Positions 25,420 through 58,267 of a DNA stretch of 64,000 bases are shown piece after piece (position 1 is the first letter of the stretch; the number at the start of each line of letters is the position of its first letter). The notes under the pieces were generated by a model. It searched no databases. It saw only the letters and a list, made by a program, of their open reading frames with translations, and had not been told where the DNA came from. The stretch spans positions 5,768,457-5,832,456 of the forward strand of contig NZ_CP095046.1 of assembly GCF_022919215.1 (NCBI RefSeq). The letters are read 5' to 3'. This stretch comes from Hymenobacter cellulosilyticus. Lineage in GTDB: Bacteria > Bacteroidota > Bacteroidia > Cytophagales > Hymenobacteraceae. The position numbers and the translations under genes are program-made.

Positions 25420-25535
25420 GCTTTAATGCTCCCGTAGTAGCAAACACCACTGGTTTTGGGACGAATGGCGAATAGTCAAAAACCGTCAACGCGGGTAAGT
25501 GAATGGGTTTTAAGCGGATAATTCTGTCCAGCCCT

Positions 25536-46158: not shown

Positions 46159-47992
46159 AATTTCACTTCTATGCCCATGAGCTGCATCAGCTTGCTGGCA
46201 TTGAACTCGCGGCAGGGCCCGGGCGTGAGGCGGTAGTCGAAGCGAATTTCGTCGCCCTCGATGGTGCTGTTGAAGCTGTAGTTGGTCACGGCGCCGGGCA
46301 GTTCCTCGGCCATAGCCGACAGCTCCAAGTCGTGGGTGCTGATCAGGCCGCTGGCGGGCCGCTGGTGCAGCTGCCGGATCAGGGCCTGGGCCCGCGGTGG
46401 CGGTCCAGGGAGTTGGTACCCTTCAGGATTTCATCGAGCAGGTAAAATACCGGCTGGCCGGTAGCCGTCAGCTCCAGCAGCAGGCGCAGGCGCTTGAGCT
46501 CGGCGTAAAACGAGGACGTACTTTCGGCCAGGTTGTCCTGGGTGCGCATGGCCGTGTACACCCGGGCCGGCGCCAGCCGCAGCTGTTGCGCACAGACCAC
46601 CGCCCCGGCCTGGGCCAGTACCATATTCAGGCCCACCGTGCGCAGAAACGTGCTTTTTCCCGACATATTCGAGCCGGTAATAACGCCCGTATGACCCGCG
46701 CCCCGGGTGCTGAAGTCATTGCTGATGCGCTGCCGGGCAAAAATGAGCGGGTGACCCAGCCCAACGGCCGTGACTTCCAGCGGCGTGGCGCTTAGCTCGG
46801 GCACGGCATAGGTGGGATTAGCGGCCTGAAAGCCGGCCAAGCTGACCAGGGCCTCCAGCTCCGCTCCTACTTCCAGCATGGCGTCGAGCTGACCGCCGAG
46901 ACGCTTTTTCCAGCGTTCCAGCTGCCACATGCACCACAGGTCCCAGAGCAGCAGGTTGTTGAGGATAATGGCAATCAGCGGGCTTTCCCGGGCCGAAAAC
47001 AGACCAGTAATGCGGGAAAGCTGCCCGATCAGGACGGAGGCGGGCTGGTGTTCGGCGCTGGCGTGCAAAGTAGCGTGCAGCTGCCGCAAATGGGCTGAGG
47101 TCCAGGTTGGCGCTTCAAACCAGGCCAGCTGGTCGCGGTAGGCCCGCAGGGCGTCGCGCATGGAGCTGCTGTGGCTGAAGTACTCGGCCCGGGCCACCCG
47201 AAACACCGAGTTCAGAGCGCCCAGCACCAGCACCGCCCCCAGGGCCAGCAGTCCGGAATACCCCAGGAACCACAGCACCACGCAGCCCACGGCCACCGGC
47301 GGCAACACAACCATCAGCAGCGTGAGCCAGCCTTTACCCTGGAAAAAATCGGGCTGCCGGAGCCACTCCGTGAAGGTGCGCGGGTCGGCGTCCTGCTTGG
47401 GAAAATGCTTGGCCCGGGCCTGCCACTCCTGCTGCCAGGCTACGTCGGGCGCCAGCTCCGCCACGGCCTGTTGGCGCAGCTCGATTACGGCCGGCTCGGC
47501 CCCGGCCAGCAGCCAGCCGGCCAGCCAGTCGTGCCCCAGGCGGGAAGTGGCCCGGTTCAGCAATTGGTACAGGGAGTGCGGGCCGAACACGTCGAGGTCG
47601 GCACTGTAGGGGTGGGCCGGGTCGAGGTAGCGCAGGCCGGGGTCGAAGCCGTTGAGCTTACCTTCCAGGCGGGCCAGCTCTTCCTGGTTGAGCTGGGCCA
47701 GCAGGCGGTAATGCTCCCGCTGGTAGCCCACGGCATTGTGCCAGCGCACCAGCAGCAAAAACACCACGTAAGCCAGGGCCACTACGCCAAAGGCGGCCGG
47801 CAGCTGCCCACGCGAAAACAGCCACCACACGGCCGCAATGCTGACCCCGAAGGCGGCCAGCCGCACCCAGGCCACCACCCGGTGCCGGCCGGCGTAGTGC
47901 TGCTCCTGGGCAGTGTGGGCGGCCAGGTTTTCTGAGAACAGCTCGGCGGGAGCCACGGAGAGCGGGCGGAAGTCGGAAGAAGCTACGGGCAC
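46155..47992 (-). CDS. Membrane-associated MutS-family ATPase (frame broken once)
   Basis: About 612 residues. Unlike MutS, the N-terminal part has hydrophobic helices (VAWVRLAAFGVSIAAVWWLF with AAFGVVALAYVVFLLLV, and LTLLMVVLPPVAVGCVVLWF with LLALGAVLVLGAL), then a MutS-type ATPase with Walker A TGSNMSGKSTF, the VYTAMRTQDNLAESTSSF loop and YLLDEILKGTNS. The mismatch-recognition domain is missing. The frame breaks at CCC 46391-46393; one added base gives HRGAQALIRQL and leads to ISTHDLELSAMAEELP and a stop inside the octamer repeat. The role is unknown; mismatch repair is unlikely. Confidence 0.88.
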
Positions 47993-50757: not shown

Positions 50758-50864
50758 ACCGTCAAAACTACCGAATTCGGACGCAATGCGTAGGAGAATA
50801 GTCCGTTTCTGAGCTGGTGCGGTTGTTGCCTCCCGGTTCAGCTGTTCGTTTAACCCCGACTTCT

Positions 50865-51671
50865 ATGCGCTCCACTGTCCGTCGCCTGACGCTGCTGCTT
50901 GCCCTAAGCACGGCTGCCCTCACCACCGCTCACGCCCAGCAGAAATTGAAGTACCCCAAGACCAAGGCCGACGAAATCTACGACGTGGCGGCCAAGCCCG
51001 CCGTGCCCACCACCGGCCTGCAGGGCTACGCCGACTACCTGGAAAAAAACCAGCAGTACCCCACGGCGGCCCTGCAAAACGGCAAGGAAGGCACCGTGGA
51101 AGTGACGTTTGTGGTGGAAAAGTCGGGCGGCATCTCCAACATTGCCGTGAAAAATGCCCTGGACCCGGCCCTCGATGCCGAAGCCATGCGCCTGATCAAG
51201 GGCGGACCCAAGTGGGTGCCGGCCGAAAACAAGGGCGAAAAAGTGCGGCAGCGCGTTACAGTGCCCATTTCCTTCCACATGCCCCTGGGTGCTGGGGGGC
51301 CCGCCCCGCAGGTATCCGATAATGAGGCAGGCGCCGACTCCAAGCCCGCTGACGGCCCCAAGGTGATAAAGCCCGAGCAGCCGGCCCGGCCCGTGGGCGG
51401 CATCGATGCCTTCTTCGAGTGGATTCAGAAAAACCAGAAATACCCGGCTCTGGCCCGCAAGAAGAACATTCAGGGCAAGGTCATGGTTGAATTCATGGTT
51501 CAACCCGACGGCTCCCTCACCGACGTCAAGCTCGTCAAGCGTCTCGGTGCCGGCCTCGACGAAGAAGCCCTGCGCCTGATTAAGGCCGCGCCCAAGTGGG
51601 AGCCGGCCATGTACCAGGGCAAGCCGGTAAAGCAAAAAATGGTCTTGCCGGTGCTGTTTCAGCTGCTCTAA
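50865..51671 (+). CDS. Periplasmic protein with two TonB C-terminal domains
   Basis: The 268-residue protein has a signal peptide (RRLTLLLALSTAALTTAHAQ) and two TonB_C-type domains, each with a GTVEVTFVVEKSGGISN-like or GKVMVEFMVQPDGSLTDVKL core and an EAxRLIKxxPKWxPA ending (about residues 45-145 and 185-268), joined by a Pro/Lys linker. It lacks the TonB N-terminal membrane anchor, so it may not act as an energy transducer; proteins with this domain alone are common in Bacteroidota. ATG 50865 begins the signal. Confidence 0.85.
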   Translation: MRSTVRRLTLLLALSTAALTTAHAQQKLKYPKTKADEIYDVAAKPAVPTTGLQGYADYLEKNQQYPTAALQNGKEGTVEVTFVVEKSGGISNIAVKNALDPALDAEAMRLIKGGPKWVPAENKGEKVRQRVTVPISFHMPLGAGGPAPQVSDNEAGADSKPADGPKVIKPEQPARPVGGIDAFFEWIQKNQKYPALARKKNIQGKVMVEFMVQPDGSLTDVKLVKRLGAGLDEEALRLIKAAPKWEPAMYQGKPVKQKMVLPVLFQLL

Positions 51672-51808: not shown

Positions 51809-53362
51809 ATGTTGGCCCCGCTACCCCTTTTATCCGCTCCGCCGGTGGCTCCTATTCCCGCGCCGCCGGTTTCCGGTCCGCTTACTATCTGGCCCTACCA
51901 GGCCCGGTTCCAACAGGCGGCCCAGGCCATGGCTGAAGGCATCTTCAACGTCCTCGATGATGACCTGGCTCCCAAAGTCACCCTCATTGGAATTCCCGCC
52001 GACCAGGGTAATTCAACCGAAGTAGTGTGCCTGGAGCCCGCCGACTGTGGCCTCGACTTCGCGCACTTCAGCAATATTATGGCCCGGGGCAAGGAAATGC
52101 AGAGCTCCTACTTCTGGAGCTCGGCCGACCGGGAAAACCTCACCGAGGAAACCATCCGTAAGCGCTACCAGGGTGTGGGCCTAAAAATGGCCATGCAGGA
52201 GGCTCTAAACGCCTTGGGCAGCAAAAACCAGTTCTTCGCTGGCTTCCCCGTTCTGGTCGATAAGTTCTTTGTCGTGACGGTGCTGCAGCTCAACCAGAAG
52301 GTGCTCAAGAGCCACCAGTCGCTGCGGCCCGACCGCTACTACACCGACGGCAAACCCGTGGCGCCTTCCCTGGTGCTGTCGGCCGTGCAGCGCTTCCAGG
52401 AAGAGTGCCTAAAGGCTCTAAATGAGCCCGAGCCGGGCGCGGGCATGCTGGTGCGCCCCCGCGAAACCGACGAGTTGGTGCGGGCCGCCGGCAAGCTGCT
52501 GATGGACACCCCGGCCCAGGCCCTGGGCATCAACCCGTCGACAGCCAAGCTGTTTGCAACCTGCAACACGATTTCCTCCCTGCGCTACGAAGGGGCCGAA
52601 GGCATTGGCAAGCTGCTGCTGGCCCGCCGCCGCCACCCCAATCTGGAAGAGGTATTTGCCCTGACCTGCCCTACCCCGCTTACCGACTACCGGGCCGTGC
52701 GCAAGCTGCTGGAAATGACCACGCCCGACGTGAGTCTGCTGGCCGACGGCGAAAACGTGTACGCCCTGGGCCGCCTGGTAGGTACCTATGACGCCAGCCG
52801 CGAGGATCTGTTCATGATCAACTTCGTGACGCACTACGCCTGGGAGTTTCAGCACGACGGCAAGGTGCTCATGCGCAGCCACTACGGCCAGCCCAGCCTG
52901 CCCCGCCCCCGGCTCAACCGCTTGCAGTTCCGCAAGGACCTGCGCCGTATCTTCGATTTGACCGCACCCGAAAAAGTGGAGCGCCTTTGGGATGTTGTGG
53001 TGGAAGCCAGCCGCCAGAAGCACGGCACGCTCGTAGTGGTGACCACCGAGGCCCTGGCCGAAGCCGACCGCCTCAAGCTGCAATGCACCCTTATTGAGCC
53101 CGTGCCGCTTACCCCCCTCATTACCCGCCTGGTCACGGCCATCGATGGGGCCGTGCTTGTCGACCCGGACGCGTATTGCTACTCCATTGGGGTCATTCTG
53201 GACGGTAAAGCTTCGGGCCACGGTACCAGCACCCGTGGGGCCCGCTACAACTCGGCCATCCGTTACGTGGAAAGCAGCCCTTACCCCTGCATGGCCATTG
53301 TGGTCAGCGAAGATGGGCTGGTCGACGTCATCACCAAAGACAATCTGCTGGAGCGGGAGTAG
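51809..53362 (+). CDS. DisA_N (diadenylate cyclase-like) domain protein with variant motif
   Basis: The 517-residue protein ends with a domain resembling DisA_N, the catalytic domain of c-di-AMP synthases. It has a GTLVVVTTEAL strand, then LITRLVTAIDGAVLVDP with the DGA motif at 446-448, and IVVSEDGLVDVI. The usual RHR motif of GTRHRAA is replaced by GARYNSA (477-483). About 380 residues precede it, helical and soluble, with KFFVVTVLQLNQKVLKSHQS and a GGxLLARRRHPNLEEVF-like part; I recall such N-terminal parts being called DACNV-type sensor domains, a memory-based match. I choose ATG 51809; the frame is open further upstream only across the previous gene. Whether it makes c-di-AMP is not certain. 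Confidence 0.8.
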   Translation: MLAPLPLLSAPPVAPIPAPPVSGPLTIWPYQARFQQAAQAMAEGIFNVLDDDLAPKVTLIGIPADQGNSTEVVCLEPADCGLDFAHFSNIMARGKEMQSSYFWSSADRENLTEETIRKRYQGVGLKMAMQEALNALGSKNQFFAGFPVLVDKFFVVTVLQLNQKVLKSHQSLRPDRYYTDGKPVAPSLVLSAVQRFQEECLKALNEPEPGAGMLVRPRETDELVRAAGKLLMDTPAQALGINPSTAKLFATCNTISSLRYEGAEGIGKLLLARRRHPNLEEVFALTCPTPLTDYRAVRKLLEMTTPDVSLLADGENVYALGRLVGTYDASREDLFMINFVTHYAWEFQHDGKVLMRSHYGQPSLPRPRLNRLQFRKDLRRIFDLTAPEKVERLWDVVVEASRQKHGTLVVVTTEALAEADRLKLQCTLIEPVPLTPLITRLVTAIDGAVLVDPDAYCYSIGVILDGKASGHGTSTRGARYNSAIRYVESSPYPCMAIVVSEDGLVDVITKDNLLERE

Positions 53363-53564: not shown

Positions 53565-54083
53565 CTACCCCTTCTTCGCCCGGAACGACCAGGTGATGCG
53601 GAACACCGCCACTGTGTCGCCGGCCTGGTCCTGGCCGGTGCTGGTGCACACCACAGTGCGGCCCTCGCCGGTAGCCCGGCTTTCGACAATGGCCTGGGCG
53701 ATACGCAGGCCGTCTTCGCTGGTAAAGGCAATCAGGCCCACGGCTTTCTTGGTAAACTCGGCCTCCATGCCCACTACCAGCATCGATACCGGGGAGCCGC
53801 TGGTTGTGTTCATCATCGACAGCACGCCGCTGGCCATTTCGGCCGCCATGCTCAGGCAGGCAAAGTAGATGCTGCGAAACGGATTTTTGGTCAGATACTT
53901 AAACGGCACCGTCACCGTGGCCCGAGCCGGCGTGATTTCGCGCACCCGCAGGCCGGCCAGGTAAGCCATGGGCAAACTGCGCAGCATAAACAGGCGCAGC
54001 TTCAGCGGGTTGGCAATGGTACGGCGAAAGGCGGCTGCCTGGGGCGTATCGGCGGGGGCAGGCACGGCGGCGGGCTGGGACAT
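53565..54083 (-). CDS. DUF4442 hotdog-fold protein
   Basis: The 172-residue product matches DUF4442, a thioesterase-like hotdog family: LFMLRSLPMAYLAGLRVREI, then KNPFRSIYFACLSMAAEMAS and FTKKAVGLIAFTSEDGLRI. It probably acts on acyl-CoA or acyl-ACP, but no substrate is known. ATG 54083 is preceded by an 18-base palindrome that may control it. Confidence 0.85.
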   Translation of the reverse strand: MSQPAAVPAPADTPQAAAFRRTIANPLKLRLFMLRSLPMAYLAGLRVREITPARATVTVPFKYLTKNPFRSIYFACLSMAAEMASGVLSMMNTTSGSPVSMLVVGMEAEFTKKAVGLIAFTSEDGLRIAQAIVESRATGEGRTVVCTSTGQDQAGDTVAVFRITWSFRAKKG

Positions 54084-54124
54084 GGCAAAACGGGCTGGGT
54101 GAGGATACTGCAAAGAACAAAAAA

Positions 54125-54142
54125 TATTCGGCATGCCGAATA
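54125..54142. promoter_or_regulatory. 18-base perfect palindrome upstream of the DUF4442 gene
   Basis: TATTCGGCATGCCGAATA lies 42 bases before the start, next to a leftward TATTTTTTG that could serve as -7 box. The position fits an operator. Confidence 0.45.
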
Positions 54143-54178
54143 GTACCCCTGGTTTTCTGCGCAGGCTTACCCAACTAA

Positions 54179-54210
54179 AACGCCCCACTTTCCGCAGAAA
54201 ATGGGGCGTT
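54179..54210 (-). terminator. Terminator of the MORN/DUF3857 operon
   Basis: AACGCCCCA pairs with TGGGGCGTT (54202-54210); the leftward RNA continues with TTTTAG. It is 28 bases after the last stop of the operon. Confidence 0.8.
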
Positions 54211-54237: not shown

Positions 54238-56226
54238 TTAGCCTTTCTTTTCCAGCACCAGCACCACCTTGTTGAAGTTGGCCGCCGCGTTTACTACTTC
54301 GCGGAAGGCTTCGAAGTCCTTTTTGGGCCAGCGAATCTGCTGGTAGTGTTCCTTGATGGTCACCGTCACCTTCTGGCCCTCCACGGCGTAGCTCGACTGA
54401 AACAGGAACAGTGGGGCCGCCGCGTCGGGGCCAGCTTTCACGTTGTAGCTCAAATCCTTCAGGTTACGGATGCTGTAGCCGGCCGGCAGCTCGAAAGTGA
54501 TGACGCGGTTGTAGCGGCGGTTAAACTCGTTTTCCACGTCGAACTGCCGGGCATCGGCCTGGTAGAGTTCCGACTGCGGCCCGAGCAGCTCGCCTACTTT
54601 GAACAAGTACTTCGGCCCGGCCCGGTTGAGCAGGGCCGCCGACTCCACCCCGGCCTCCACGATGAAGGGCTTGGCCAAGGGGCTCAGACCCCGCTCCCCG
54701 TTAACGACGTTCAGGCTTTTGAAGGTGGCGTCGGGCACGCAGCTTTTGATAAACTCCTGGGCTATTTCGGTGCGCTTGGCTTCCGGAATGAGGGAGTAGA
54801 ATGGCTGAATCACCTGGGCGTTGTAGCCGCCCAAAATGTAGCGGATATTGACGGTGGACTTATCCAGGGTTGGGGCAAACTGCACGTTGATGTCCAGGTC
54901 GCTCGGGTTCTGGTCGGCGGCCAGGGTCGGGATGTCCTTCACCTTTCCCACCGCCGACTCGGTAGAGCCTAGCTTCACGGTCCGGATAAACAGACCGGGG
55001 TTGGCCGTCCACTCCGAAGGCACCATGCCGTAGCGGTAGTCGGGCCGGGCGGGGGCCAGCATCTGCTTGGTGGCCGGGAAGTAGAAAATGTAGTTGTCCA
55101 GGTAATTCCAGGTGTCGAACGACTCGTCGAAGGGCGACACGCTCCGGTCGGACGTCACTACTACTTCGTGCTCAATGCCCAGCTTGCGCAGCACCCCGGC
55201 AAACAGGCGGGCAAAGCCCAGGTCGGAAGCATTGCGGGTATTAATAATGCCCGAAAGCTCTGCCTCGGCGTATTCCTCCGAAGGGTTGAAGTTGGTTTTG
55301 ATGTAGTTTTCCACGAACTGCACCTGCTCGGTTACGCCGCCGGCGGGCACTTTCATCAGCTTCAGCAGCTTGTCAAGGGCCTTTTGCTCATCCTTGGTGT
55401 AGGTGTAGAGCGAGCCGTGAATGTACTGGCTGGCTTCGGCCCAGGTAAAAAGCCGCTCCCGGCCCCGACTGGCATTATAGGCCAGCTTATACTCAATGCG
55501 CATCCGCTCGGCCTGGGAGTTGGCAAACGCCTCTTCCCGGGCAATGGCCACGTCCTTCAGGGCAATTCGCACCACGTGCTTGCCGCCAATTACGGTGTCG
55601 CGGCTGGCCTGGGGGCCGTGGTACACGCGAGTATCGAAGGTGAGCTGCTCGGGTGAAATCAACTCGAAGGTGACCGAACGGGCCGGCAAATCGGCTTGCA
55701 GGTACTCGCGGCCGAAGTAGTTGGGGCTGCGCTGCCGCATGTACACATATTCGATTTCACTGCCTTTCTCCACGCCTTCCACGGCAAAAATCTTGAAGCC
55801 CCGGGCCCCGTCCTGGTCTTTGAGCTCTTTGATGTTGCTTTGGTTGAGCTCTACCACCTCGCCCCGCGGACTAATCGTGCGGGCCTTGAGCCAGAGCAAG
55901 GCCCCATCCTGCACCGGCACGTAAATCTTGTTGAACCGCTCAATGGCATCGGTGCTGTTCACACGCACGATGCTGTGGTTGGTGGAGTACAGGCCCAGCT
56001 TCTGGGTTTTCTCGTCGTAGAAATACTCCTGGGCCGTGAAATCGAGCAGCAACAGAGCCGGCAGCTGGGTTTCGGCTTCGGTGAGGGGCAGGCGCTTGCG
56101 CTTGGCATCCCAGGTGTAGCTAGCGTGGGTCAGGCCAGCCGGAATAGCCTGGGCACATACGTCCAGCATAAGCAGCCAACCCAAGGCCAGGGTGAGGCCC
56201 AAAAGACGGAAAGAGGATTTTATCAT
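54238..56226 (-). CDS. DUF3857/transglutaminase-fold protein lacking the catalytic cysteine
   Basis: The 662-residue protein has a signal peptide (LLGLTLALGWLLMLDVCAQA), a DUF3857 domain (SIVRVNSTDAIERFNKIYVP, then GARGFKIFAVEGVEKGSEIEY) and a transglutaminase-like fold. Where active members have GDCKD, it reads TRNASDLGFARLFAGVL, and the usual histidine is replaced in WNYLDNYIFYF. It is therefore probably inactive and perhaps a binding or scaffold partner of the active paralogue encoded just upstream. It starts at ATG 56226, 82 bases after that gene's stop. Confidence 0.88.
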   Translation of the reverse strand: MIKSSFRLLGLTLALGWLLMLDVCAQAIPAGLTHASYTWDAKRKRLPLTEAETQLPALLLLDFTAQEYFYDEKTQKLGLYSTNHSIVRVNSTDAIERFNKIYVPVQDGALLWLKARTISPRGEVVELNQSNIKELKDQDGARGFKIFAVEGVEKGSEIEYVYMRQRSPNYFGREYLQADLPARSVTFELISPEQLTFDTRVYHGPQASRDTVIGGKHVVRIALKDVAIAREEAFANSQAERMRIEYKLAYNASRGRERLFTWAEASQYIHGSLYTYTKDEQKALDKLLKLMKVPAGGVTEQVQFVENYIKTNFNPSEEYAEAELSGIINTRNASDLGFARLFAGVLRKLGIEHEVVVTSDRSVSPFDESFDTWNYLDNYIFYFPATKQMLAPARPDYRYGMVPSEWTANPGLFIRTVKLGSTESAVGKVKDIPTLAADQNPSDLDINVQFAPTLDKSTVNIRYILGGYNAQVIQPFYSLIPEAKRTEIAQEFIKSCVPDATFKSLNVVNGERGLSPLAKPFIVEAGVESAALLNRAGPKYLFKVGELLGPQSELYQADARQFDVENEFNRRYNRVITFELPAGYSIRNLKDLSYNVKAGPDAAAPLFLFQSSYAVEGQKVTVTIKEHYQQIRWPKKDFEAFREVVNAAANFNKVVLVLEKKG

Positions 56227-56308
56227 AGGAGAAATTGACCACGGCCCGGGGCCGAGTCCTAGCAAAAACGCGTGACGCAATAGGGTAAGAGCGGAGAGTT
56301 AAGCAGAA

Positions 56309-58267
56309 TTACACTTTCTTCTTTTTCAGGATAATAACGTCGCGGTAGGCCGCGCCCAGCTTATCGACTACCGTGTTCCACTTAGCAAACTCGGTGGGCT
56401 GCAGCAGCAGGTAATTCACGTACAGGTCTTTTTCCTGCACGATTTTGTTGCCTTTGCGCTCGTAGCGGATACTGAAGCCCAGCACGTCTTCTTTGGTAGA
56501 AGCATTGGCCGGCAAATACTCGACCTCGTAGCCCGTCGGAATCTCAAACTCGGTGCGGGTCCGGTTGCTGTGGGCGTACTCGTTGTACATCGGCAGCTGC
56601 CGTTTACCGGCGTCTATCCGGTCGTTGCCGTAGGGCTGCTCCAGGTTCAGATTCAGGTAGATTTCGTCGTCGACCTGCTGCACGTAGTCCTGCAGGCGGT
56701 ACTCGTAGTCGATGGTGAGAGGCTGCTCCCGGGCGGCCACGTTGTGCACGGCGTAGCTGTCGACGAAGAACTTGTTGTTGCCGCGCTCCAGCACCCGCTT
56801 CACGTACTTGGACTCCTCGGTTTTGTCCATGCCATCGAGGGCGTAGGCCTGGGTGATTTTGGGGTAGCCCGACAAGGCCAGCTGCCCTTTGCCCTTGAGC
56901 GTGGTGCCGCTCAAGGCCACGGTGGAAATATCCACGGCGTTGCTTTTCTCCTTGCCCATCACCGGCACGCTCACCACTTTGCAGTTCTTACCGTCCAGCG
57001 CCAGCAGGGCTTCCTTGCCTTGAATCATGGACGTGGGCATGTTGAAAGGATTGTGCTTGCTGGTAGCGTCCAGAAACACGTACTGCCCGGGCTTGGGCTC
57101 CCAGGTGGCAATCATGTGGTTGTCGACGCCTGGCGTGGCCAGCTCGGAGTAGCGGTACGGCAGGGCCCGGGTACCAATCCAGGTCAGGTAGGACTTCACG
57201 CCGGCCATGCGCAGCATCTCGTGGGTTAGGTTGGCCATGTCCTTGCAGTCGCCGTAGCGGCGGGCGTACACCTGGCCGGCATCGGCGGGCACGAAGCCGC
57301 GCAGGCCGTTTTCGAAGGCTACGTAGCGCACGTGGTCCTGCACCCAGTAATACACGCGGCGCACCCGCTCCTCTTCCGAAGCGGCGCCCACGGCCAAGGA
57401 GTCGACTACGCGGCGCAGGGCCGGGCTTTCCTTTTTGTCGAGGCCAGCCACGAAGCCGGAGTACAGCGAAAACAGCTCGGGCACGCCCGAAAGCATCTTG
57501 CGGGGCTGCCCGGCGGCGGGTACTTCCTCCACGTAATACACCAGGTGGGGCGCGTAGTAGGCTATTTCCGGGCCGTCGTCGTCGCGCGAGGGGCTGGGCA
57601 GGTTGTCCACAGTCCAGCGGTAAATGACCGACGAGCCTTTCTCCTGCTTGGTGAAGGTGACGGGCGTGTTTTCGACGTGAAACAGCTTGTAGTTGATCTT
57701 CACCGACTTGGGCGCCGTGAGCGTGACTTCGGCGTGGCGCGTGGGCACGTGGTTGGCGAAGTAGAACGGCGACAAAAACCGGGCGTCGGGGTGGCGCACG
57801 GTGTAGTCCACGACGGTGCGCACGCCAGGTGCCACCGACGGGAACGTCCAGGTGGTGTAGCGGGTATCGTCGAAGAAAATCCCTTCCTGCACCTCAAACT
57901 TCTCTTTGAAGTCGGAGATGCGCAGTGCCTTGTAATCGTTGCCGGCCGGAATCAGGGTGCGGGCTTCGAGCTTCTGCAGGCGGTTGAAGTGGGAGCTGTA
58001 CACTTTGTCGCGGGCGTACATAGCCGACTGCGGCGCCAGATGCAGCATGTCGTAGTGGTGGCGGGCCAGCACCTGCACCGAGTCACCCTTAAGCTCGACT
58101 ACCACGTCTTCGCGGTAGTCAAGGTACACGGCCTTTTCGTCGGGGTACTGTTTTTGGGCGGCCAGCAGCGCCTGCAGGGGCTGCTGGGCTTGCGTCAGGC
58201 GGGGCTGCGTGAGCAGCAGGCTGCCCACAACCAGGCCCAGGTACCAGGATAGTTTATTTGCTGCCAT
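56309..58267 (-). CDS. DUF3857 transglutaminase-like protein with intact triad
   Basis: The 652-residue protein has a signal peptide (WYLGLVVGSLLLTQPRLTQA), a DUF3857 domain (DYREDVVVELKGDSVQVLAR) and a transglutaminase-like domain with Cys341 (RRYGDCKDMANL), His384 (DNHMIATW) and Asp400 (FLDATSKHNP). It may act as a periplasmic peptidase or cross-linker. Its start overlaps the stop of the MORN gene by 14 bases, which shows translational coupling. It forms an operon with the MORN protein and the inactive paralogue. Confidence 0.92.
   Translation of the reverse strand: MAANKLSWYLGLVVGSLLLTQPRLTQAQQPLQALLAAQKQYPDEKAVYLDYREDVVVELKGDSVQVLARHHYDMLHLAPQSAMYARDKVYSSHFNRLQKLEARTLIPAGNDYKALRISDFKEKFEVQEGIFFDDTRYTTWTFPSVAPGVRTVVDYTVRHPDARFLSPFYFANHVPTRHAEVTLTAPKSVKINYKLFHVENTPVTFTKQEKGSSVIYRWTVDNLPSPSRDDDGPEIAYYAPHLVYYVEEVPAAGQPRKMLSGVPELFSLYSGFVAGLDKKESPALRRVVDSLAVGAASEEERVRRVYYWVQDHVRYVAFENGLRGFVPADAGQVYARRYGDCKDMANLTHEMLRMAGVKSYLTWIGTRALPYRYSELATPGVDNHMIATWEPKPGQYVFLDATSKHNPFNMPTSMIQGKEALLALDGKNCKVVSVPVMGKEKSNAVDISTVALSGTTLKGKGQLALSGYPKITQAYALDGMDKTEESKYVKRVLERGNNKFFVDSYAVHNVAAREQPLTIDYEYRLQDYVQQVDDEIYLNLNLEQPYGNDRIDAGKRQLPMYNEYAHSNRTRTEFEIPTGYEVEYLPANASTKEDVLGFSIRYERKGNKIVQEKDLYVNYLLLQPTEFAKWNTVVDKLGAAYRDVIILKKKKV

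Follow-up and report, generated by a model that had tools for sequence, protein, structure and literature searches.

The DNA analysed here (the window) is a 64,000-nucleotide stretch of the Hymenobacter cellulosilyticus chromosome. It codes for a DAC-domain protein that keeps the DGA motif of diadenylate cyclases and carries RYN at the place of their RHR motif. In published work, DGA and RHR are the motifs by which a DAC domain is recognised as a diadenylate cyclase (e.g. PMC3328451, PMC13022847). We found that this protein belongs to a branch of DAC domains whose named members come from five phyla. The motif His is absent from the branch throughout our sample, yet one member is needed for phage defence. 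The loss of a phosphate-binding His across the whole RYN branch is a real puzzle. Judged from its sequence, the window protein may be a soluble nucleotide second-messenger synthase. In the papers examined we found no description of the His-less signature or of the fixation of two copies in the genus, a statement that stops short of calling them unpublished. Literature searches with the DACN domain names returned one unrelated paper, those combining Hymenobacter with c-di-AMP returned none, and the passages of PMC11066881 examined say nothing on the RYN motif.

The gene and its landmarks are as follows.

51809..53362, + strand: DACNG-DACNH-DAC protein, 517 aa, with a RYN-type DAC domain (translation, Pfam)
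51887..52504, + strand: DACNG domain, residues 27-232 (Pfam, 1.8e-62)
52547..52858, + strand: DACNH domain, residues 247-350 (Pfam PF21750, 6.2e-31)
53003..53341, + strand: DAC domain, residues 399-511 (Pfam PF02457, 3e-10; structure match over residues 372-513)
53144..53152, + strand: DGA motif, residues 446-448 (translation)
53195..53206, + strand: ILDG, residues 463-466, where the CdaA of the same genome has ILPV
53237..53257, + strand: GARYNSA, residues 477-483, replacing GxRHRxA (translation, alignment)
53306..53314, + strand: SED, residues 500-502, counterpart of the SEE motif; D502 stands in the column of the metal-binding Glu of CdaA (alignment)

Translation confirms that DGA and GARYNSA stand where a sequence-only reading of this DNA had placed them. 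Translation probably begins at the ATG at 51809, although the open frame extends back to a GTG at 51596; P0002, a relative with 95% identity, has the same length of 517 aa. Pfam finds DACNG, DACNH and DAC in this order and no further domain, the DAC match scoring 40.2 bits against a cut-off of 27 (hmmscan). This three-domain architecture is already catalogued in Pfam. The DACN domain names are said to come from the DAC architecture classification of Galperin 2023, 'All DACs in a row'. That classification is cited in PMC13092281. In structure comparison, the C-terminal part gave fold matches to DisA and CdaA, so that by Pfam and by fold the last part of the protein lies inside DisA_N/DAC and not outside it. 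The fold of DACNG shows a weak likeness to IclR effector domains. In a simple hydropathy test, the highest 19-residue Kyte-Doolittle mean was 1.67, against 2.27 in the CdaA of the same genome, in agreement with the earlier statement that there is no membrane segment. A PDB sequence search with the window protein gave no match, and a nine-sequence profile gave five weak matches, none of them to a DAC. Because these searches returned no DAC, the DAC domain of the RYN branch must be regarded as divergent. Pfam detects it in seven of ten relatives scanned, the three missed including the DS-2 type Citrobacter protein, and a Pfam DAC search of the whole genome listed CdaA and a paralogue while missing the window protein; counts from such searches are lower bounds.

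The motif was examined in an alignment of 278 proteins, comprising 269 protein ids from three protein searches (best 120 of 1244, best 120 of 1230 and best 120 of 1293 matches; window protein included) and nine from other records. The sample is Hymenobacter-weighted and recruited by similarity to RYN queries, and it shows constancy within the branch, not frequency among DACs. Among the matches listed, R479, D446, G447, I463-L464-D465-G466, R476-G477, S500 and D502 are each identical in 278/278, as are E261, G267, R298 and K299 of DACNH. In the same matches, N481 and S482 are each present in 277/278 (at 481 the exception is P0111, with T), position 480 is Y in 253, F in 24 and L in one, with His in 0/278, and position 478, the Thr column of GxRHRxA, is Ala in 253 and Ser in 25.

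Other DACs look different at this site. Bacteroidota CdaA has GxRHRAA in 30/30 loci (22 GTRHRAA, 5 GLRHRAA, 3 GMRHRAA), these being the best-scoring 30 and hence the most canonical. RH followed by R, H or L occurs in 11/11 further sequences, namely the CdaA of the same genome and ten proteins from plasmid records, which include three close Picosynechococcus relatives and carry the annotations CdaA, CdaS, DacZ, diadenylate cyclase or DisA nucleotide-binding domain protein. One of the 11 (L138) has NGA in place of DGA. Among seven more DAC matches, five have RHT or RHA, one (L166) has RYN and one (L171) has no readable motif. Overall, the middle His is kept in 46/46 readable DACs outside the RYN branch, in a sample without DisA sequences. 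Since the third motif position varies among these DACs (R, H, L, T or A), the telling change is His to Tyr and not Arg to Asn. Measured against a canonical diadenylate cyclase, the window protein has DGA, and RYN where RHR or RH is expected. A chance or decayed motif is ruled out by near-invariance in the 278 relatives (among the matches listed) and by dN/dS values well below 1; a sequencing error is ruled out by independent relatives that share the residues.

To read these positions, we relied on the CdaA contacts given in PMC7288161. In CdaA, the Leu of GALI and main-chain Leu88 touch adenine and the DGA Asp touches the ribose (PMC7288161). The phosphates are contacted by Thr-Arg-His of GxRHRxA, a Ser and others, the metal ligand is the second Glu of SEE, and the ATP site of Listeria CdaA also uses main-chain Leu, Gly and Glu (PMC7288161). 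The residues of the window protein aligned to this site are L408, D446, A478-R479-Y480, S500 and D502. Across the RYN branch, Leu, Met or Ile (rarely another residue), Asp, Arg, Ser and an acidic residue are kept at the corresponding positions, and the His is lost. The Thr position of GxRHRxA is not fixed in CdaA either (Thr, Leu or Met); what has truly been lost is the His. Directly behind the base-reading Leu, 278/278 RYN proteins (among the matches listed) have Asp, where the CdaA of this genome and that of Listeria have Pro; that Leu and the Arg stand 15 positions apart in the RYN proteins as in both CdaA proteins. The DGA Asp contacts ATP bound on the second DAC molecule (PMC6741144), and c-di-AMP forms only when two DAC domains pair head to head (PMC8573169).

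Selection was estimated from six pairs with related species, some with dS above 1, which makes single ratios rough. The dN/dS values were 0.007-0.075 in DAC and 0-0.082 in DACNH; the short linker had 0.037-0.483 and DACNG 0.138-0.397. DACNH is under strong purifying selection, as constrained as DAC, and DACNG evolves faster than both. Because its constraint equals that of DAC, DACNH is ill-suited as a fast-changing sensor, a part that DACNG fits better.

A tree of 47 DAC domains was built from 26 RYN and 21 other domains (16 of 41 comparators and five of the seven further matches). In this tree, which holds no DisA, RYN DACs are split from CdaA-, CdaS- and DacZ-type domains by a 100/100 branch, and all those tested fall on one side of it, which supports the distinct branch that had been suggested from the letters alone. 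The RYN-side branch is 5.07 changes per column long, counted from the midpoint root. Since this branch is long, and long rows occur in both groups (L165, 5.1; L139, 2.11; Phycisphaera, 1.75), the deeper branching order is unsettled. The RYN sequence from another Bacteroidota genome (L166) falls within the RYN branch. A very divergent DAC from a further Bacteroidota genome (L165, the row of length 5.1) has GTRHTSA and VSMDG, versus the usual VSEE. Among the matches listed, named RYN members belong to Bacteroidota, Pseudomonadota, Planctomycetota, Bacillota and Cyanobacteria (Nostoc, Anabaena, Nodularia). Many members carry the database names 'diadenylate cyclase' or DisA (among the matches listed), and the parts of the literature examined report neither a product of the branch nor activity of any RYN DAC.

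The nearest named relatives of the window protein (among the matches listed) are from Hymenobacter. DACNG is present in 61/61 genomes of the genus sample, with exactly two matches in 59; the remaining two have three matches, two of them neighbouring pieces, and the second copy looks broken or misread there. The family sample, which includes these 61 genomes, has DACNG matches in 130/204 genomes and none in 74. Matches occur in 120 genomes of the genus itself (two in 116, three in 3, one in 1), in eight genomes of a second genus with two matches each and in two of a third with one; no Hymenobacter genome is found among the 20 of the 74 non-matching genomes that were listed. At phylum level 4/395 genomes match, all from this genus. 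The DACNG search understates RYN proteins, because Dyadobacter and the L166 genome carry them elsewhere in Bacteroidota. The second RYN paralogue of the genome (G000:C1:4371375-4372850; L002, L143) is 485 aa long, 38% identical to the window protein and has GSRYNSA. Comparison of 20 loci from 11 genomes, to which the second genus contributed two genomes, yielded ten window-like loci (61.5-97.3% identical) and ten paralogue-like loci, with 36.1-39.6% identity between the types. Both types were present in nine of the 11 genomes and in the window's own; from the eleventh genome one locus was fetched. The two types form separate 100/100 clades, and the tree does not settle how they are related to each other. 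A search for CdaA elsewhere in the genome, advised by the sequence-only reading, located a canonical one at C1:592014-592367 (L001). The 7TMR-HDED domain of PgpH, which serves c-di-AMP removal, was not found in this genome, and DHHA1 gave three matches. Regarding a phage origin, the family had 0 matches in 50,697 phage records, exact patterns derived from one protein found nothing in viral contigs, and a structure comparison with BFVD found no matching fold at a cut-off of E 0.001.

To compare the surroundings of the gene, we examined flanking DNA of at most 6 kb around 80 relatives of the window gene. The two immediate neighbours are as follows.

50817..51671, + strand: TonB_C protein, directly upstream; in the upstream flank of 79/80 loci, on the strand of the DAC gene
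53565..54188, - strand: DUF4442 protein, downstream and convergent; in 73/80 loci, on the opposite strand and at varying distance

A RidA gene is found in 53/80 loci, and genes further out less often. The neighbours give no pathway, as had been noted before, but the neighbourhood itself is conserved. The paralogue has a conserved neighbourhood of its own, with a flavoprotein-like frame (by reading of the sequence) on the same strand in 8/9 loci. CD-NTase and patatin proteins of the DS-2, Priestia and own-genome types gave 0 tblastn matches at E 1e-3 in 80 + 20 loci, whereas five positive-control loci gave 24 matches; among the window neighbours scanned there was no phospholipase or nucleotidyltransferase of DS-2. 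The location looks like a stable core site, not a defence island. No promoter or terminator was found between the TonB_C gene and the DAC gene. One promoter-like site lies within the DAC gene, with 0.7 expected, and a Bacteroidota-type promoter pattern has its sole match at 25535. Elsewhere in the window, the frame of a MutS-like ATPase gene (46379-47992, - strand) ends early (NSLDRHRGPRP, then a stop), while a relative in L023 continues; since the remainder is readable in another frame, the gene carries a frameshift, real or due to a sequencing error. Two adjacent DUF3857/transglutaminase-like proteins are encoded in tandem at 54238-56280 and 56309-58267 (- strand).

The branch member tied to phage defence belongs to DS-2. 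This system protects E. coli, and altering either of two predicted catalytic residues of its DAC protein abolished defence (PMC13092281). The same article locates 15 of 30 DS-2 homologues with CBASS and names the DAC protein a diadenylate cyclase, with no enzyme assay in the parts examined (PMC13092281). We infer from the name and gene content that the DS2 of NCBI is this DS-2. The single NCBIfam match of the window protein is NF053872, DS2_3_antiphage (E 1.6e-138; 462.6 bits, below the cut-off of 630), covering positions 5-487 of 576 and leaving the last 89 unmatched; PADLOC gave no match for the window protein. In E. coli NZ_CM151382, a family relative follows a phospholipase and a nucleotidyltransferase, with type II CBASS, Cap15-type and mCpol genes nearby. 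The E. coli trio scores 506.5 (DS2_1), 464.9 (DS2_2) and 818.8 bits (DS2_3) against cut-offs of 400, 350 and 630, and its DAC has RGSRYNS, DGT, ILDG and SDD. NF053872 is also passed by the Citrobacter (803.8 bits) and Gluconobacter (712.2 bits) proteins, and these two have the DS-2 trio among the seven plasmid relatives. One Priestia plasmid relative lies about 0.7 kb from a SMODS-type CD-NTase encoded on the opposite strand, another sits among restriction-modification genes, and three of the seven have no recognised defence gene nearby. At L164:4069-13746 (E. coli), DS-2 lies close to a type II CBASS and to a Cap15-type/mCpol pair. On Picosynechococcus plasmids (L136, L137, L141), the gene after a stand-alone RHL-type DAC codes for an ATP-binding protein, and in two cases a CHAT-domain protein comes after that. 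In the window's own genome, at about 1.92 Mb of C1 (L175:7377-9928), a patatin phospholipase gene precedes a CD-NTase gene; since PADLOC E2 models match the C-terminal part of this CD-NTase (residues 343-477), it appears to be a CD-NTase-E2 fusion in a compact CBASS.

Altogether, the reading we favour, at about even odds, is that the window protein would be a soluble RYN-branch enzyme that makes a nucleotide second messenger under the control of a ligand. Two DAC domains would meet face to face, each with a nucleoside triphosphate lodged among the D446 loop, the R479 helix and, with the metal, S500/D502. DACNG would supply the variable input, DACNH would belong to the conserved core instead of being a mere sensor, and the product would be c-di-AMP or a close relative. 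An enzyme is favoured over a binder because the ribose Asp, the Ser and the acidic metal position are all fixed. By analogy, the DS-2 DAC, which is of the same RYN kind and lost defence on changes of predicted catalytic residues, also speaks for a synthase, and near-invariance in the 278 proteins (among the matches listed), low dN/dS and the 120 genus genomes that carry the family are consistent with it. On the other hand, replacing RHR by AAA in M. tuberculosis DacA abolished ATP binding and activity (PMC3328451), and M. bovis CdaM needs both DGA and RHR to be active (PMC13022847). Moreover, the genome already has CdaA, Pfam misses the DAC domain in 3/10 relatives and the second copy looks broken in 2/61 genomes. 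The main alternative is a nucleotide-binding sensor, whose DAC would bind a dinucleotide or nucleoside triphosphate, no longer cyclise it and pass its state to partners via DACNH or DACNG. A protein that only binds would fit the DS-2 defence loss as well and could show equal conservation, and the absence of the phosphate-binding His from 278/278 RYN proteins (among the matches listed), the canonical CdaA and the dependence of other DACs on RHR all agree with it; we nevertheless regard it as rather unlikely, as D446, S500 and the acidic metal position are kept in the same 278/278, more than seems required for binding alone. A functionless, inactive relic is very unlikely on sequence grounds.

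Production of another nucleotide, such as one containing guanine or a mixture of bases, would follow if ILDG beside the base-reading Leu altered base choice. The Leu main chain in that loop of CdaA touches adenine (PMC7288161), and the invariant Asp in place of Pro at equal spacing and the long RYN branch are in line with such a shift, but the effect is a predicted one and the Asp may serve folding alone, which leaves this reading improbable. Slightly more doubtful again is a broader proposal, that RYN DACs would be a second, His-less class of nucleotide cyclases whose product is not, or not only, c-di-AMP, that DACNH would be a degenerate DAC-like domain pairing with DAC and lending R298/K299 or E261 to its nucleotide site, and that an enzyme elsewhere sporadic and in part tied to defence would have become, in Hymenobacter, a pair of core signalling genes. 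Defence at a distance, together with the genome's own CBASS as in DS-2, appears very improbable. Membership of the DS2_3 family and the patatin and CD-NTase pair on C1 would suit it, but the score stays below the DS2_3 cut-off with the profile end unmatched, the flanks of both paralogues lack those partners in the 80 and 20 loci searched, and near-universal presence in the genus is unlike a sporadic defence gene. The predicted role of the putative synthase in the genus would rather be core chromosomal signalling than a mobile defence cassette. Hymenobacter offers a stable chromosomal two-copy setting for asking what the RYN branch makes, a question of direct relevance to the way DS-2 operates with two different cyclases.

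Compared with known DAC proteins, the window protein shares with CdaA, both that of its own genome and that of Listeria, the DAC fold, DGA, the Ser and the acidic metal position, whereas CdaA has RHR and hydrophobic N-terminal segments, and the window protein has RYN and no membrane segments. In DisA the DAC domain is N-terminal (chain range 10-138) and the C-terminal part binds DNA (PMC7288161); in the window protein DAC is C-terminal. Priestia proteins likewise combine DACNH with a RYN or RFN DAC, but Pfam did not recognise DACNG in the three scanned. DS2_3 has the RYN motif, ILDG and an acidic motif in common with the window protein (SDD in DS2_3, SED here), and its close Citrobacter form also has DACNG and DACNH. 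Unlike the window protein, DS2_3 has a C-terminal extension and an adjoining phospholipase and CD-NTase, and its E. coli form occurs in 18/5426 E. coli genomes, whereas the window form is chromosomal and genus-wide.
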